Source: Cytophagaceae bacterium
GTDB lineage: Bacteria; Bacteroidota; Bacteroidia; Cytophagales; Spirosomataceae
Reading direction: 5' to 3'
Assembly (NCBI GenBank): GCA_947450865.1
Contig: CANFWR010000002.1
Location: forward strand, 1-48,495
DNA length: 48,495 nucleotides
A program made the position numbers and the translations under genes. Within the stretch, counting starts at the first letter, position 1. Every line of letters begins with the position of its first letter. This document shows, one piece after another, positions 3 through 35,038 of the stretch. The notes beneath the pieces are model-generated. The model ran no database searches. It saw only the letters and a list, made by a program, of their open reading frames with translations, and was not told the origin of the DNA.

Positions 3-257
3 CGCCATTTGAACTACGCGACTTTCACGAAGATGCCGATCGCGGTTCAAAACCACAAATTAGAGGAGACGATCGAACAAGTAGAAGAAGGCGAGATGCC
101 ACTTCCATCTTACACGTATTTTGGCCTACATAGTAATGCTAAATTATCAGAGGCCGACCGCTCTAAAATCATCAACTGGGCTAAGTCTCAAATGGCGATG
201 CTGAAAGCAACCTATCCGGCGGATAGTTTGAAGATGAAGCCGAGGAAGAAAAGCTAA
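3..257 (+). CDS. Haem-binding domain protein, C-terminal fragment
   Basis: The window cuts the 5' end. The reading frame is open from base 3 and stops at 257, giving about 85 residues. The visible part carries a segment reading KLEETIEQVEEGEMPLPSY followed by a helix with LSEADRSKIINWAK. This resembles the C-terminal half of the Bacteroidota haem-binding domain family (Haem_bd type), where the CxxCH haem motif lies further upstream; here that part is outside the window. Such proteins are usually periplasmic, small cytochrome-like proteins. The TTG at base 9 is not a credible start because homology-like sequence is already under way. The TAA stop lies inside the first unit of a hairpin-repeat array that begins at about 251. 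Function beyond haem binding cannot be judged. Confidence 0.6.
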   Translation, partial: RHLNYATFTKMPIAVQNHKLEETIEQVEEGEMPLPSYTYFGLHSNAKLSEADRSKIINWAKSQMAMLKATYPADSLKMKPRKKS

Positions 258-320
258 GCGCTGCTGCGCAGCGCAGGCAAAGAGTCGCCTGCGGCTTAGT
301 CATCGCTTCGCGATTTAGTC
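251..320 (-). repeat. GACTAA/triloop hairpin array R1
   Basis: Read on the minus strand, GACTAA-type heptamers alternate with short self-complementary units: TCGC-GAA-GCGA, then GACTAAG, then a CCGCAGG-type unit, then a degenerate CTGCGCAGCAG unit ending at CGCTTAG. The array covers the stop codon of the haem-binding gene at 255-257. It is related in spacer and hairpin design to arrays at 605-717, 2628-2703 and 33449-33552, and its first unit is identical to that of 33449. Its orientation is opposite to those three, as expected because its adjacent gene is on the plus strand. Confidence 0.75.
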
Positions 321-342
321 TTATATGCCCACTAGGGCCCCT

Positions 343-421
343 GAGGGCACTATTGTGTGAAATAAAGCGCGAGGTATGCAGAGGGCTTTTCAGGTATTGA
401 CAGATTTTGTCAATACCTGAA
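343..421 (+). repeat. Composite 3' element, copy A (linker plus TATTGACA hairpin)
   Basis: A conserved block contains GGCACTATT, GTGAAATAA, CGAGGTA and CAGAGGGC, and ends in a hairpin TTCAGGTATTGACA (389-402), five-base loop GATTT, TGTCAATACCTGAA (408-421). This is the longest perfect stem of the five copies, at 14 bp. There is no T-run after the stem, so it is not a typical rho-independent terminator. It lies in sense orientation downstream of the plus-strand haem-binding gene and its array R1. Bases 422-511 between this copy and the next contain nothing I recognise. Confidence 0.8.
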
Positions 422-511
422 TTTGTTTTTAGGGTAAAATTTAATGTACAAAAGCGCTCGACCCCATTCCAAAACCACAGATTACCTAAACAAAAAAAGT
501 CGACTTTCGCA

Positions 512-586
512 TATTGACACAATCTGTCAATACCTGAAAATCGACTTTTATACTTTGCAAGTTATTTCAACTAAAAGTGCCAATAA
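512..586 (-). repeat. Composite 3' element, copy A' (diverged)
   Basis: TATTGACA (512-519), loop CAATC, TGTCAATA (525-532) is followed by CCTGAAAA and a diverged linker that keeps TTATTTCA and GTGCCAATAA. It is inverted relative to copy A and in sense orientation for the minus-strand alcohol dehydrogenase, whose stop lies beyond array R2. The linker differs more from the other copies than they do from each other, so this is probably an older copy. Confidence 0.65.
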
Positions 587-604: not shown

Positions 605-717
605 CGACTAACCGAAGTTTACTAAATCGCGCAGCGATGACTAAGTCCGCAAGACGACTAAGCGACGCAGTCGCGACTAAGGCGCATAGCGCCGAGTCGA
701 CTAGTCGCGCAGCGACT
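605..717 (+). repeat. GACTAA/triloop hairpin array R2
   Basis: About six units of GACTAA(G/A) separate mini-hairpins with different but complementary stems: TCGC-GCA-GCGA, GCGAC-GCA-GTCGC, GGCGC-ATA-GCGCC and GTCGC-GCA-GCGAC, plus weaker units. The last GACTAG supplies the antisense TAG stop of the alcohol dehydrogenase at 701-703, and the last hairpin encodes that protein's final residues SLRD. The region 258-700 contains no other gene. Confidence 0.8.
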
Positions 718-2532: not shown

Positions 2533-2607
2533 TATTGACACTTTCTGTCAATACCTGAAAAGCCCGCTGCCTACCTCGACGTTTATTTCACGTAATAGTG
2601 CCATTGG
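2533..2607 (-). repeat. Composite 3' element, copy B
   Basis: TATTGACA (2533-2540), loop CTTTC, TGTCAATA (2546-2553) is followed by CCTGAAAAGCCCGCTG, TACCTCGACGTTTATTTCA and AATAGTGCCATTGG. It lies between the convergent PIN toxin gene and the 84-residue gene, with its array R3 on the side of the latter. Confidence 0.8.
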
Positions 2608-2627: not shown

Positions 2628-2703
2628 ACTAAGTCCGAAGGACGACTAAGCGGCTCCGCTGCGACTAAGCCACGAAGTGGCGACTAAGGCGCAACGCGCC
2701 GAC
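2628..2703 (+). repeat. GACTAA/triloop hairpin array R3
   Basis: Four units are visible: ACTAAG TCC-GAA-GGA, GACTAAG with GCGGC-TCC-GCTGC (one G-T pair), GACTAAG CCAC-GAA-GTGG, and GACTAAG GCGC-AAC-GCGC. It ends a dozen bases before the terminator of the minus-strand gene. Confidence 0.78.
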
Positions 2704-3050: not shown

Positions 3051-3114
3051 CACTACCGCAAAATCAATCTATGTCAAAAATCCCGCCAAGCACAGTTTTT
3101 GGACTAAATAAATC

Positions 3115-4275
3115 TTATTTCCAAATATGTACCTCTACACGGCGATTCAACTGCAGATCCGTCTTCGAAGCCGGCACTAACTCAGAGAATGCCTCGCCTT
3201 TAAAGCGATCCGAATTAACACCGCGTTGCATCAAGTAACGGCGAACGGACGCCACACGACGCTTAGCTAAACCATCATTATACCGTTCCGTTTGACGGTA
3301 ATCAGTGTGACCCTGTAACACCACATTCACAGACGGATATTCCTTCAACAACTCAATAATGCGATCCAATTTACGCGCGTTCATAGGCCCTATCCACGAC
3401 TTATCCGTGCGGAAATATACCACGGTATCGAAAAGCGAATCGAGATTCACCTCGCGACGCGGCTCAACAGCAGCAACTACAGGCGCAGGAGCAGCAGCCA
3501 CCGGAGGACAACCCTTCAACTCTTTCAAACCAGCGACCACTGGACAATCATCCAGCGCATCGATCACCCCATCGCCATCTTTATCAGACGGACAACCTTT
3601 GTTTTCGCGCACCCCTTTCACCGTAGGGCAATCATCCTCAGAATCTAATATACCATCGCCATCGGTATCTAATGGAGCCGCCACCACTTCAGGCTCAGGC
3701 GTAACAATCCGCTCATGACCCCACTCAAACACTAGACCTAAAGTGGTGCTAAAATTCGTCCCTCTATGATTCAATGGATCTAATTTACCTGACACAAAAA
3801 ACGGGAATCCCACCTGCGTGATACCGCGCAAAAGCCAGTGTTCCGCCACCTTATAGTCCACACCTGCGGCTATGGATCCGGCGAAATCTACATCGCGGTA
3901 GGTTTGGTTATAATTATTATCGAAAACAGCATCCCCCGCAAACTGCCCGAACGGTTTCAGGCGAAACTTATCCCTATCGCGAAGGTAATAGCGAAGACCT
4001 ACACCCGCGGAAGCATAGCGATCACGCGACCCATTGAGACCGAATAATAAAGTCCCAAAAACGTCCACATTCGGTTTCGTTTCGCGGGCATATTGCAACC
4101 CTAATTCGGTATAATTAACTAAGAAATCACGGCGCGATGGTAACTCCTGCATCCAGCGATTCGTGCCCCCTAAAAGAAGCGACATGCTGTGGCGCGGGGT
4201 GTATTTGATGTCTTCCACGGTGCTCTGTTGGGCAAAAGCAGAAAAACTGAAAAACAAAAACAAAAGCTTCTTCAT
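3115..4275 (-). CDS. OmpA-family outer membrane protein with thrombospondin type 3 repeats
   Basis: This 386-residue protein has a signal peptide (1-15, ending AFAQ), a membrane beta-barrel-like region (about 20-195), two calcium-binding thrombospondin type 3 repeats (DTDGDGILDSEDDCP and DKDGDGVIDALDDCP, about 200-260), a short Pro/Ala linker, and an OmpA C-terminal peptidoglycan-binding domain (about 275-386) with the GHTDYRQTERYNDGLAKRR signature around D325. It should link the outer membrane to peptidoglycan. Its ATG overlaps the PorP/SprF stop in a TAATG at 4273-4277, so the genes are co-translated. OmpA proteins commonly accompany PorP/SprF and T9SS type B cargo genes, and anchoring or exporting the giant surface protein is the likely role. 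Confidence 0.9.
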   Translation of the reverse strand: MKKLLFLFFSFSAFAQQSTVEDIKYTPRHSMSLLLGGTNRWMQELPSRRDFLVNYTELGLQYARETKPNVDVFGTLLFGLNGSRDRYASAGVGLRYYLRDRDKFRLKPFGQFAGDAVFDNNYNQTYRDVDFAGSIAAGVDYKVAEHWLLRGITQVGFPFFVSGKLDPLNHRGTNFSTTLGLVFEWGHERIVTPEPEVVAAPLDTDGDGILDSEDDCPTVKGVRENKGCPSDKDGDGVIDALDDCPVVAGLKELKGCPPVAAAPAPVVAAVEPRREVNLDSLFDTVVYFRTDKSWIGPMNARKLDRIIELLKEYPSVNVVLQGHTDYRQTERYNDGLAKRRVASVRRYLMQRGVNSDRFKGEAFSELVPASKTDLQLNRRVEVHIWK

Positions 4276-32463: not shown

Positions 32464-32473
32464 CGTGCTTTAA

Positions 32474-32544
32474 TGGTGTTTTTATGTGAAATTTTGCTCG
32501 AGGTACGCAGAGGGCTTTTCAGGTATTGACACTTTCTGTCAATA
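32474..32544 (+). repeat. Composite 3' element, copy C (no hairpin array)
   Basis: AATGGTGTTTTTATGTGAAA, CTCGAGGTACGCAGAGGGC, TTTTCAGG, then TATTGACA (32524-32531), loop CTTTC, TGTCAATA (32537-32544). It is in sense orientation directly after the thioredoxin-like gene. Unlike the other copies, no GACTAA array separates it from the stop codon. Confidence 0.78.
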
Positions 32545-33161: not shown

Positions 33162-33224
33162 ATCCGGCAATTGTTTAACCGTAAAATAAATCATTCACAA
33201 TCACCATTAATCCATTTTTCCTCC

Positions 33225-33333
33225 TACCTTTATCCCAGTTTTAAACAAACACAAAATGAAAAAAGATGTAATTGTAGGCTAAGCGCCTAATTAATATTCG
33301 AATTGAAAAAGCCTGAATCTTCAGGCTTTTTTT
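33225..33333 (+). ncRNA. Candidate ~95-nt transcript with a tiny ORF (small RNA or leader remnant)
   Basis: A -7-like box TACCTTTAT (33225-33233) is followed by an A-rich leader, an eight-codon ORF MKKDVIVG (33256-33282), a small hairpin TAGGC-TAAGC-GCCTA around its stop, and a strong terminator ending at 33333. The next gene is convergent, so this cannot be an attenuator for it. It may be a small RNA, a leader left behind after loss of its gene, or a peptide gene. No -33 TTTG is visible at the right distance, so transcription is uncertain. Confidence 0.35.
33309..33333 (+). terminator. Rho-independent terminator
   Basis: The GCCTGA/TCAGGC stem (33311-33326 with its short loop) is flanked by AAAAA on the left and seven T on the right. 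It ends the small candidate transcript and any read-through from the DUF2442 gene, and because of the A-run it may work on both strands. Confidence 0.85.
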
Positions 33334-33355
33334 ATGCCAAAAATAATGGGAAGCA

Positions 33356-33430
33356 TATTGACAGAAAATGTCAATACCTGAAAAGCCCTCTGAGTACCTC
33401 GACGTTTATTTCACACAATAGTACCATTAG
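33356..33430 (-). repeat. Composite 3' element, copy D
   Basis: TATTGACA (33356-33363), loop GAAAA, TGTCAATA (33369-33376), then CCTGAAAAGCCCTCTGAG, TACCTCGACGTTTATTTCA and CACAATAGTACCATTAGG. It is in sense orientation for the minus-strand GH3 gene and inverted relative to copy C. Confidence 0.82.
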
Positions 33431-33448
33431 GCGCTCTATTGGCCTACT

Positions 33449-33552
33449 CGACTAAATCGCGAAGCGATGACTAAGCCGTAGGCGACTAAACGGCCTCGCC
33501 GTGACTAAGGCGCAAAGCGCCGATCCGACTAAGCGGCTCCGCCGCGACTAAA
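33449..33552 (+). repeat. GACTAA/triloop hairpin array R4
   Basis: Five clear units: CGACTAAA TCGC-GAA-GCGA, GACTAAG CC-GTA-GG, GACTAAA CGGC-CTC-GCCG, GACTAAG GCGC-AAA-GCGC, GACTAAG CGGC-TCC-GCCG, then a final GACTAAA whose CTA (33548-33550) is the antisense stop codon of the GH3-family gene. Stems differ from unit to unit but remain complementary, and loops are always three bases. Confidence 0.85.
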
Positions 33553-35038
33553 CCGCTAACAACCCTTCCGCCAGCACCCGGTCATTCGAGAGGCGGGGAA
33601 CTTTGTTTTGGCCCCCTAATTTACCCTGAGACTTCATATAAGAAATAAAAGCACCTGCGGGAAGCGAAGTAAGCACTAAAGGGCGCAAGATGGACCCGGT
33701 AATCAAGTCGCGATAATAGATATTTTGCGCGCACATGGACGCGTCTAAAGCCACCTGAAATGTAGATAAAGACGGCGGCGGCGATGAAAACTCGATAAGC
33801 CACTCATGGTATGGCAAACCACTCGCAGGAGAAACCTGCGGTGCGACAGTAAACTCAACGACTCGCGCTTCAGGACAAGCTAAAAGTGCAGCAGCCAGTG
33901 CTTTCTCGACTTCTTCAGCGATCACGTGCTCACCAAAAGCCGAAATAAAGTGCTTAATCCGACCCGTCACCACAATGCGGTACGGATTCAAAGAAACGAA
34001 CTTCACGGTATCACCAATGGAATAGGACCAAAGGCCGGCATTCGTTGTCAACAAAAGCGCGTAATTAACGTCTAATGACACCTCTGTGAGGCTTAAACGA
34101 ACAGGGTTCGCGCCGAAATAGGTATCCGTAGGAACAAACTCAAAGAAAATCCCGCCGTCTACGTTCAATAAAAGCCCTGGTTCGCCCGAAGAGTCATCAA
34201 ACGCAATGAACCCCTCCGAAGCGGGATATGTCTCCACCACGTCAATTTCTCGGCCTATCGAGGCCAGTAGTTTCTCCCGGTATGGCTCGAAGTTCACACC
34301 GCCGGTCACGAAGACCTGAAAATCGGGGAAGAGGTCGCCTATTTTTTGGCCAGATAACTCCTCTAAACGATCGAAATACATCTGCACCCAAGGCGGAATC
34401 CCGGAAATCAATCCCATCCGCTTCGAGATCGTTTCTTGCACAATCGCCTCGAGCTTTTGCTCCCAGTCTTCGATGCAATTAGTCTCATACGATGGCATTT
34501 GATTACCGCGTAAATAGCCCGGCACATGGTGGTTCACGATTCCTGAAAGACGACCCGTAGGTACGCCATTGGTCTCATTCATCTCCGGAGAGCCACTTAA
34601 AAAGATCAATTTCCGGTCTAAAAACGAAGCATTTCCACTATAAAATACATAATGCAACAAGGCATCCCGCGCGGCGGTGATGTGAAAAGGCATCGAATCC
34701 GATGAGATGGGAATGTATTTGACGCCGGAGGTGGTGCCGGAGGTTTTGGCAAAATAGGCTGGTTTTCCAGGCCAAAGAATATCTTCCTTGCCCGCCACCA
34801 CTTCGTCGATATAGGGTTTGATGTCTTCGTATTCGAAGATGGGTACGTTAGAGCGGAAGTCGAGGTAGTTCTTGATTTTGGAGAACGAGTGACCGCGCCC
34901 AAAAAGCGTTTTCTCCGCTTTCGCCACCATTTGCTTCAACCAAAAGTCTTGGCGCTCAAAGGCCTGCTCCTGGCTCAAGCGATACTTTTTAACGACACGG
35001 GCCGCTAGAGGTTTGGCAAAAAAGGAACGAATACCCAT
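33548..35038 (-). CDS. GH3-family (acyl-acid amido synthetase-like) protein
   Basis: This 496-residue, full-length member of the GH3 superfamily is related to adenylating acyl-acid amido synthetases known from plants and found in many Bacteroidota with unknown substrate. The ATP/phosphate-binding motif is at 99-105 (TSGTTSG in AYFAKTSGTTSGVKYIP), a second motif is YPASEGFIAFD near 296-306, and the hinge region is YSIGDTVKFVS, followed by a C-terminal domain of about 120 residues with the adenylate-forming lid motif GRIKHFISAFGEHV. It is cytoplasmic. It follows the TPR-protein gene by seven bases, probably in one transcript. Its stop codon lies in array R4. Confidence 0.85.
   Translation of the reverse strand: MGIRSFFAKPLAARVVKKYRLSQEQAFERQDFWLKQMVAKAEKTLFGRGHSFSKIKNYLDFRSNVPIFEYEDIKPYIDEVVAGKEDILWPGKPAYFAKTSGTTSGVKYIPISSDSMPFHITAARDALLHYVFYSGNASFLDRKLIFLSGSPEMNETNGVPTGRLSGIVNHHVPGYLRGNQMPSYETNCIEDWEQKLEAIVQETISKRMGLISGIPPWVQMYFDRLEELSGQKIGDLFPDFQVFVTGGVNFEPYREKLLASIGREIDVVETYPASEGFIAFDDSSGEPGLLLNVDGGIFFEFVPTDTYFGANPVRLSLTEVSLDVNYALLLTTNAGLWSYSIGDTVKFVSLNPYRIVVTGRIKHFISAFGEHVIAEEVEKALAAALLACPEARVVEFTVAPQVSPASGLPYHEWLIEFSSPPPSLSTFQVALDASMCAQNIYYRDLITGSILRPLVLTSLPAGAFISYMKSQGKLGGQNKVPRLSNDRVLAEGLLAV

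Follow-up and report, generated by a model that had tools for sequence, protein, structure and literature searches.

The window analysed here, a stretch of 48,495 nt, contains four arrays built on the motif GACTAA, and inspection of the sequence located in them all the hairpins quoted by the initial annotation. Array 4 (33449..33552, plus strand) comprises five perfect units (33450-33468, 33469-33483, 33484-33502, 33503-33521 and 33527-33545) and a terminal GACTAA (33546-33551), which makes the TAG stop codon (33548..33550, minus strand) of a GH3-family gene (33548-35038, PF03321). Array 2 (605..717, plus strand) has perfect units at 656-674 and 675-693 with imperfect units on either side, and a GACTAG within it makes the stop codon (701..703, minus strand) of an alcohol dehydrogenase gene (701-1750; PF08240, PF00107). 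Array 3 (2628..2703, plus strand) has perfect units at 2663-2681 and 2682-2700 and an imperfect unit at 2644-2662 with one G.T mismatch, while array 1 (251..320, minus strand) has perfect units at 302-320 and 287-301, followed by a degenerate hairpin region that continues to 251. The window contains 12 instances of GACTAA followed by a purine and a perfect triloop hairpin of 3-5 bp; when the six letters of the tag were reordered, the 119 alternative hexamers gave 0.26 instances on average and never more than 3. One of the 12 matches (3102-3118) lies outside all arrays and is probably a chance occurrence. GACTAAR alone is mildly enriched in the window (22 against 11.3 +/- 3.5 in shuffles), and the whole genome of origin gives 25 adjacent-unit matches against 5 for a reversed control pattern. 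Tandem Repeats Finder (minimum score 40) returned four rows for the window, with no GACTAA array among them; Rfam gave no match in the window at gathering score, and a scan of the surroundings of array 4 for promoter and terminator consensus sequences gave no excess over shuffles.

Several other features accompany the arrays. A separate palindromic element with the core TATTGACA-N5-TGTCAATA precedes all four of them, at 33355..33440 (plus) before array 4, 333..415 (minus) before array 1 and 2533..2605 (plus) before array 3, with its core at 511..540 (plus) before array 2; a further copy at 32471..32544 (minus) has no adjoining array. It carries about 40-60 bp of partly conserved flank and sometimes forms a long imperfect palindrome. 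Since it is found without arrays and many arrays are found without it, we consider it distinct from them; among the matches listed, it occurs only in array carriers. A block at 33200-33335, which aligned in all seven carriers compared, includes a tiny open reading frame (ORF; MKKDVIVG) at 33256-33282 and, beyond it, a hairpin with a run of T, seen by eye and not listed by the promoter and terminator scan. By appearance this block may be a small leader or an RNA gene, and it has no Rfam match. Beside array 3, a PIN-domain protein (2090-2518, PF13470) has a small ORF directly upstream, and this block (1845-2518) is probably a VapBC-like toxin-antitoxin pair. The minus strand also carries a 7784-codon open reading frame (5168-28522) with an internal 261-bp tandem repeat. 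At three of the array loci (L039, L051 and L053), loose 7-nt periodic runs (AAAGTTC-, GGTAAAT-, AGAGTAT- and CAGTGGA-like) stand directly before the arrays.

On the GACTAA strand, each unit consists of the tag, a stem arm of 3, 4 or 5 bp, a loop usually of 3 nt and the second stem arm, giving units of 15, 17 or 19 nt with hairpin parts of 9, 11 or 13 nt. The four arrays had been described as sharing a heptamer, GACTAA(A/G). The arrays are real, and the tag itself is the hexamer GACTAA, because the seventh base opens the stem and pairs with the pyrimidine before the next tag. The stem-NNN-stem units proposed to lie between the tags were confirmed in the sequence, some of them imperfect, and tag variants within arrays include GACCAA and GACTCA. 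The fetched loci that were used hold 712 units with 9, 11 or 13 nt separating the tag from the next GAC. Pairing is perfect in 601 of them, and 128 of the perfect units are distinct; the first set alone contained 26 different 5-bp stems. In that first set, 365 of the 421 units with a 13-nt hairpin part were perfect, against a mean of 53 and a maximum of 71 in 500 redeals of the 3' halves, although such counts are not independent because units copy one another. The excess over random pairing persisted when each distinct 13-nt unit was counted once (87/140 perfect, against a mean of 6.1 and a maximum of 14 when the 3' halves were redealt). Thus, the proposal that pairing is kept while the unit sequences differ holds.

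The hairpins also follow a rule that links loop and stem. The pair closing the loop is C-G in 597 of the 601 perfect units and, read on the GACTAA strand, the loops are GNA in 466, TNC in 22 and of other types in 113, so that the GNA-type loops first noticed in several units are in fact predominant. Counting distinct perfect units, the figures are 65, 9 and 54, and 97 units from loci fetched after the rule had been noticed gave 73, 5 and 19. As TNC is the complement of GNA, equal counts would be expected if the strand were irrelevant. Perfect stems with a 4-nt loop are represented by five distinct units, three of them with GNNA. The use of GNA falls as the stem becomes stronger: it is found in 166/173 units with stems of 3-4 bp (distinct units, 21/28), in 222/278 units with a 5-bp stem of at most three GC pairs (26/51), in 73/100 with four GC pairs (15/29) and in 5/50 with an all-GC 5-bp stem (3/20). 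All-GC 5-bp stems thus differ from the remaining stems, where GNA occurs in 461/551 units (Fisher p 8e-27 for units and 5e-4 for distinct units), and in the later set none of 8 all-GC stems had GNA against 73 of 89 others. Weak stems with GNA and strong stems without it form the pattern that a stability threshold would give. DNA mini-hairpins with GNA or GNNA loops are described as exceptionally stable and nuclease resistant (PMC4686876). This known extra-stable DNA mini-hairpin, C(GNA)G, is defined by a GNA or GNNA loop on at least two G-C pairs, and the units match it in sequence by the counts made for the loop (GNA in 466/601) and for the closing pair (C-G in 597/601).

The arrays are not confined to the window; they are spread across the genome and shared with relatives. 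Neither of the two outcomes named beforehand as refuting the initial annotation, a lack of excess complementary changes over random and arrays unique to the window, was observed. Ten of 37 Aquirufa genomes (G000, G002, G007, G008, G013, G015, G020, G022, G024 and G028) carry arrays, with 22-99 adjacent-unit matches each, while the other 27 have 0-2 and 22 other genomes of the order Cytophagales have 0-1. A scan of the genomes of 84,980 species for two 5-bp units, each centred on CGNAG, together with the three tags that border them returned 30 stretches, labelled Cytophagaceae, Aquirufa and, for one metagenome-assembled genome (MAG), Spirosoma fluviale; this narrow pattern is tied to GACTAA and GNA, so that arrays with another linker or other loops would escape it. 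The MAG labelled Spirosoma fluviale (CAMDSI records) shows Aquirufa arrays whose positions on the contigs agree with those in G008, and its label therefore looks wrong. The contigs with the array pattern include those of A. antheringensis 30S-ANTBAC, a cultured freshwater isolate. In a tree of the GH3-family protein (20 rows), the 7 carriers sampled of the 10 form one clade with full support, and on this one-gene tree the arrays are restricted to one branch of the freshwater genus Aquirufa. The literature on the genus separates the branch of A. antheringensis from that of A. nivalisilvae (PMC11861422), and we infer that the carriers represent the former.

Comparison between carriers indicates that the sites persist while their contents change. 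Among 155 arrays under 10 genome labels, 135 have at least one partner array at a matching flank in another genome, in a count where one label (CANLVU) is unmatched to a genome handle and sites at which the relative has no array are uncounted. Orthologous arrays of at least three units share on average 24% of their units, whereas random arrays drawn from two genomes share 7.5%; for pairs with aligned flanks at least 90% identical (43 of 110) the mean is 25%. At orthologous positions beside an identical neighbour, we counted 72 identical units, 32 loop-only changes, 30 differences in length, 15 different words, 8 compensated pairs and 9 uncompensated stem changes; the 200 pairs behind these counts are non-independent, and differences in length or word may represent separate gains and losses. 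Among the 8 compensated units, several have changes at two or more pairs and may likewise be swaps. The stems had initially been called compensating, which is partly right: they are conserved, and stepwise compensation is a minor contribution, as loop-only (32) and whole-unit (45) changes outnumber compensated ones (8). The counts thus indicate that the variety of units comes mainly from different whole hairpins together with strong conservation of the stem, and the conserved stems with variable loops of repetitive hairpin-forming elements are found here (32 loop-only changes against 8 and 9 stem changes). Within arrays, units are repeated more often than by shuffling in G020 (53 pairs against 8), while the value for G007 (6 against a mean of 1.9 and a maximum of 7) is within the shuffled range. 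Adjacent unit pairs common to different arrays show no excess in either genome (4 against 3.5 in one and 1 against 0.3 in the other), and tandem block duplications are visible in several arrays. Repeats within arrays, with no excess of blocks common to different arrays, suggest that arrays can grow locally and that what different arrays share is single units.

Such behaviour might be that of a purely mutational satellite, in which slippage and template switching (quasi-palindrome correction) make and perfect the hairpins with no selection. Template switching changes both arms of a hairpin in one event, and the fast turnover of units, the tandem block duplications, the lack of a block order common to arrays in the two genomes and the restriction to one clade all agree with this explanation. 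The preference for GNA could likewise reflect a mutational mechanism rather than selection on function. By itself, however, a mutational satellite predicts neither GNA on one strand nor the inverse relation between loop and stem, and we regard it as possible but doubtful. If GNA hairpins were better substrates for template switching, it would merge with the explanation that we favour, namely a DNA hairpin kept by its stability.

The genomic position of the arrays bears on a second alternative, that they act as RNA elements in 3' untranslated regions (for termination or protection of mRNA 3' ends) or in leaders. Of the 108 arrays classified, 67 are flanked by convergent ORFs. In a set of 79 arrays, 60 have the 3' end of an ORF directed towards them at no more than 300 nt and 19 have none. 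For 23 of those 60, a count in which some stops were tallied twice for neighbouring arrays, the CTA of a GACTA in the array or just past it serves as the stop codon. The median distance to the next ORF boundary is 22 nt for the array end that is 3' on the GACTAA strand (at most 30 nt in 61/108) and 202 nt for the other end (at most 30 nt in 6/108). Arrays lie inside called ORFs in 2 of 79 cases, and 11 outward-facing pairs with a centre below 100 nt were found among these 79 arrays. The reading frame of the GH3-family gene ends within the array region in all seven carriers compared, in G002 only after a longer tail, and the tails of the gene in these carriers are short and changed relative to 8 non-carriers. 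On a possible bias towards the leading or lagging strand, both array orientations were often seen by eye at one site in G007, and sampled GC skew gave no clear origin.

If folding of mRNA were under selection, the strand with GNA should track the transcribed strand, and it does not. The ratio of GNA to TNC is 45:3 where the flanking ORFs predict transcription in the TTAGTC sense only, 55:0 where they predict the GACTAA sense only, 200:10 between convergent and 49:2 between divergent ORFs; these figures cover 108 of 128 arrays (15 at an edge and 5 too far away were left out) and rest on ORFs of at least 120 codons rather than annotated genes, the direction of transcription being predicted from them. 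Because the polarity is independent of gene direction, DNA is favoured over mRNA, and the structure first attributed to either RNA or single-stranded DNA is better read as folded DNA. RNA forms of C(GNA)G mini-hairpins are much weaker than the DNA forms. All unit pairs appear in the predicted minimum-energy fold of 13 of 53 arrays for GACTAA-strand DNA, against 5 for TTAGTC-strand DNA, 3 for GACTAA RNA and 2 for TTAGTC RNA, the mRNA-sense molecule being the one least predicted to form the unit hairpins. For array 4, the plus strand as single-stranded DNA is predicted to fold into five separate hairpins (z -1.99; 4/200 shuffles as good), while the minus strand as RNA, which is the mRNA sense, is predicted to adopt a long-range structure (z -1.26; 22/200 shuffles as good). 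These predictions agree weakly with folding of GACTAA-strand DNA. Computed unit energies show no strand difference for any unit with DNA parameters, and RNA parameters differ in 5 of 71 5-bp units, so that the strand preference rests on loop statistics and on the literature. Single mismatches on the GACTAA strand are G.T in 28 cases and A.C in 9 (p 0.003; the later set by itself has two of each), an excess that runs against RNA of the mRNA sense. For the authors of a survey of repetitive extragenic palindromes (REPs), G.T pairs point to RNA (PMC3733652), and in that light the excess leaves room for RNA of the GACTAA sense. Taken together, we consider RNA elements distinctly unlikely.

The initial annotation knew of no named repeat family with this design, and in the open-licence literature searched we found no description of a GACTAA mini-hairpin array family; a term search of the main text of Aquirufa species papers gave no mention of repeat, hairpin or palindrome. 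Like CRISPR, the arrays alternate a constant short repeat with variable units. CRISPR spacers are unique, non-palindromic and foreign, whereas the repeat here is just 6 nt long and what varies is a set of palindromic hairpins that recur in different arrays. The very small mobile repeats and small dispersed repeats of cyanobacteria are also tiny, dispersed and proposed to be mobile; they comprise a few conserved sequences and are not known to have the design of one tag with many hairpin words. The hairpin elements of mitochondria (in sponges, and the GC clusters and double hairpin elements) share with the arrays an intergenic location, multiplication within a lineage, tandem arrangement and stems kept while loops change (PMC2800124). 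They differ in being longer and of few motifs, with a constant linker, a GNA rule or a stem-strength rule not noted for them in the parts of that account used here, and the GACTAA arrays lie in bacterial genomes.

The closest bacterial likeness is to REP, BIME and REPIN elements of the GTAG and CGTC types, which likewise are small hairpins outside genes, polar with respect to strand, tagged at one foot and situated mostly downstream of genes (PMC3733652, PMC3116915). As far as these accounts go, many REP families also have alternative paired stem bases, and the GTAG-1 family of Thauera has 5-bp stems. The predominance of REPs downstream of coding regions (PMC3733652) is matched by the extragenic position of the arrays at gene 3' ends, between convergent ORFs in 67/108. 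The REP tag has 4 nt and the stems are mostly 6-9 bp of a family sequence, whereas the arrays have a 6-nt tag, GACTAA and its variants, with stems of 3-5 bp and more than 100 different units (128 distinct perfect ones) arranged head to tail. REP or REPIN elements moved by a Y1 (RAYT) transposase are therefore a very improbable identity for the arrays: tag, stem length and stem variety all differ, and none of the 10 carriers has a Y1_Tnp match (E <= 0.001; three carriers are 96-99% complete and the others 73-91%), against 12 of 27 Aquirufa non-carriers, although an ancestral transposase may since have been lost. A RAYT defines GTAG REPs and REPINs and not CGTC REPs, which are said to have no dedicated transposase (PMC3733652).

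A Y1 transposase was rejected as the mobiliser on the same result. A reverse transcriptase was rejected as a companion because its occurrence is inconsistent (3/8 carriers and 1/16 Aquirufa non-carriers). Loss of SbcD (TIGR00619) was rejected as a cause, since it had no match in any of the 24 Aquirufa genomes searched, carriers and non-carriers alike, with 6 of 13 other Cytophagales genomes above the cut-off; its lack would be at most permissive for hairpins and leaves the restriction to one clade unexplained. Scarcely credible, finally, are docking sites or decoys for a hairpin-reading protein, such as an N4-like virion RNA polymerase or a nucleoid or topoisomerase protein: the early promoters of phage N4 are short DNA hairpins with a 3-nt loop and a sheared G:A, extruded by supercoiling and used on one strand (PMC4496689), but they are three single promoters with base-specific contacts and not arrays, the stem sequences of our units vary widely, IMG/VR gave 22 pattern matches with no hairpin units by inspection, and one rich array had no match in GenBank phages or PLSDB plasmids. 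By the tests made, the arrays belong to none of the compared systems. By analogy, they would behave in the genome like REP-type repeats and the hairpin elements of mitochondria, and physically they would resemble the N4 promoter hairpins. They form a well-supported clade-restricted repeat design that we did not find described in the searches made.

The explanation to which we give about an even chance is that the arrays are a lineage-specific, strand-polar DNA mini-hairpin repeat with REP-like anatomy, kept by the stability of the hairpin. The sequences show the units, their polarity, the trade-off between stem and loop, the restriction to one clade on a one-gene tree, the matching sites in different species, the fast turnover and, in one of the two genomes tested, the repeats within arrays. 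The molecule that folds would be DNA of the GACTAA strand, either single-stranded or extruded by supercoiling; in phage N4, small hairpins whose 3-nt loop holds a sheared G:A are described as extruding from supercoiled DNA (PMC4496689). Arrays may be shortened and lengthened by slippage across hairpins, or by template switching there, with GACTAA as the flanking direct repeat; this 6-nt homology may also serve to copy single units from array to array. Only units with a stable enough DNA hairpin would be kept or copied, and we propose that weak stems need a GNA loop, and strong ones do not, because retention needs enough DNA-hairpin stability. To the host, the arrays would be REP-like elements between genes, taking up the room that is left before the next ORF boundary and often providing its stop codon; a possible, unproven benefit is the absorption of torsion between convergent genes. 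A counterpoint is that only 65 of 128 distinct units have a GNA loop, and the stronger figure of 466/601 counts copies. A bolder form of the DNA-hairpin explanation, which we hold to be rather speculative, would see the units as nuclease-resistant cassettes of single-stranded DNA, copied singly at GACTAA by strand annealing or a nicking enzyme. The arrays would then be shuffled decks of the smallest known mobile DNA, with selection for the C(GNA)G fold and a trade-off that is the footprint of a stability threshold in the cell.

To conclude, the test-tube rule for extra-stable DNA mini-hairpins is followed by hundreds of natural units, on a single strand and with what looks like a stability threshold. 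The rapid change of single hairpins at fixed sites raises the question of what copies a unit of 15-19 nt. As the carriers include the cultured A. antheringensis 30S-ANTBAC, both DNA folding and unit copying can be tested. Thus, the arrays of Aquirufa may offer an evolutionary read-out of the folding of DNA, rather than RNA, hairpins in cells.
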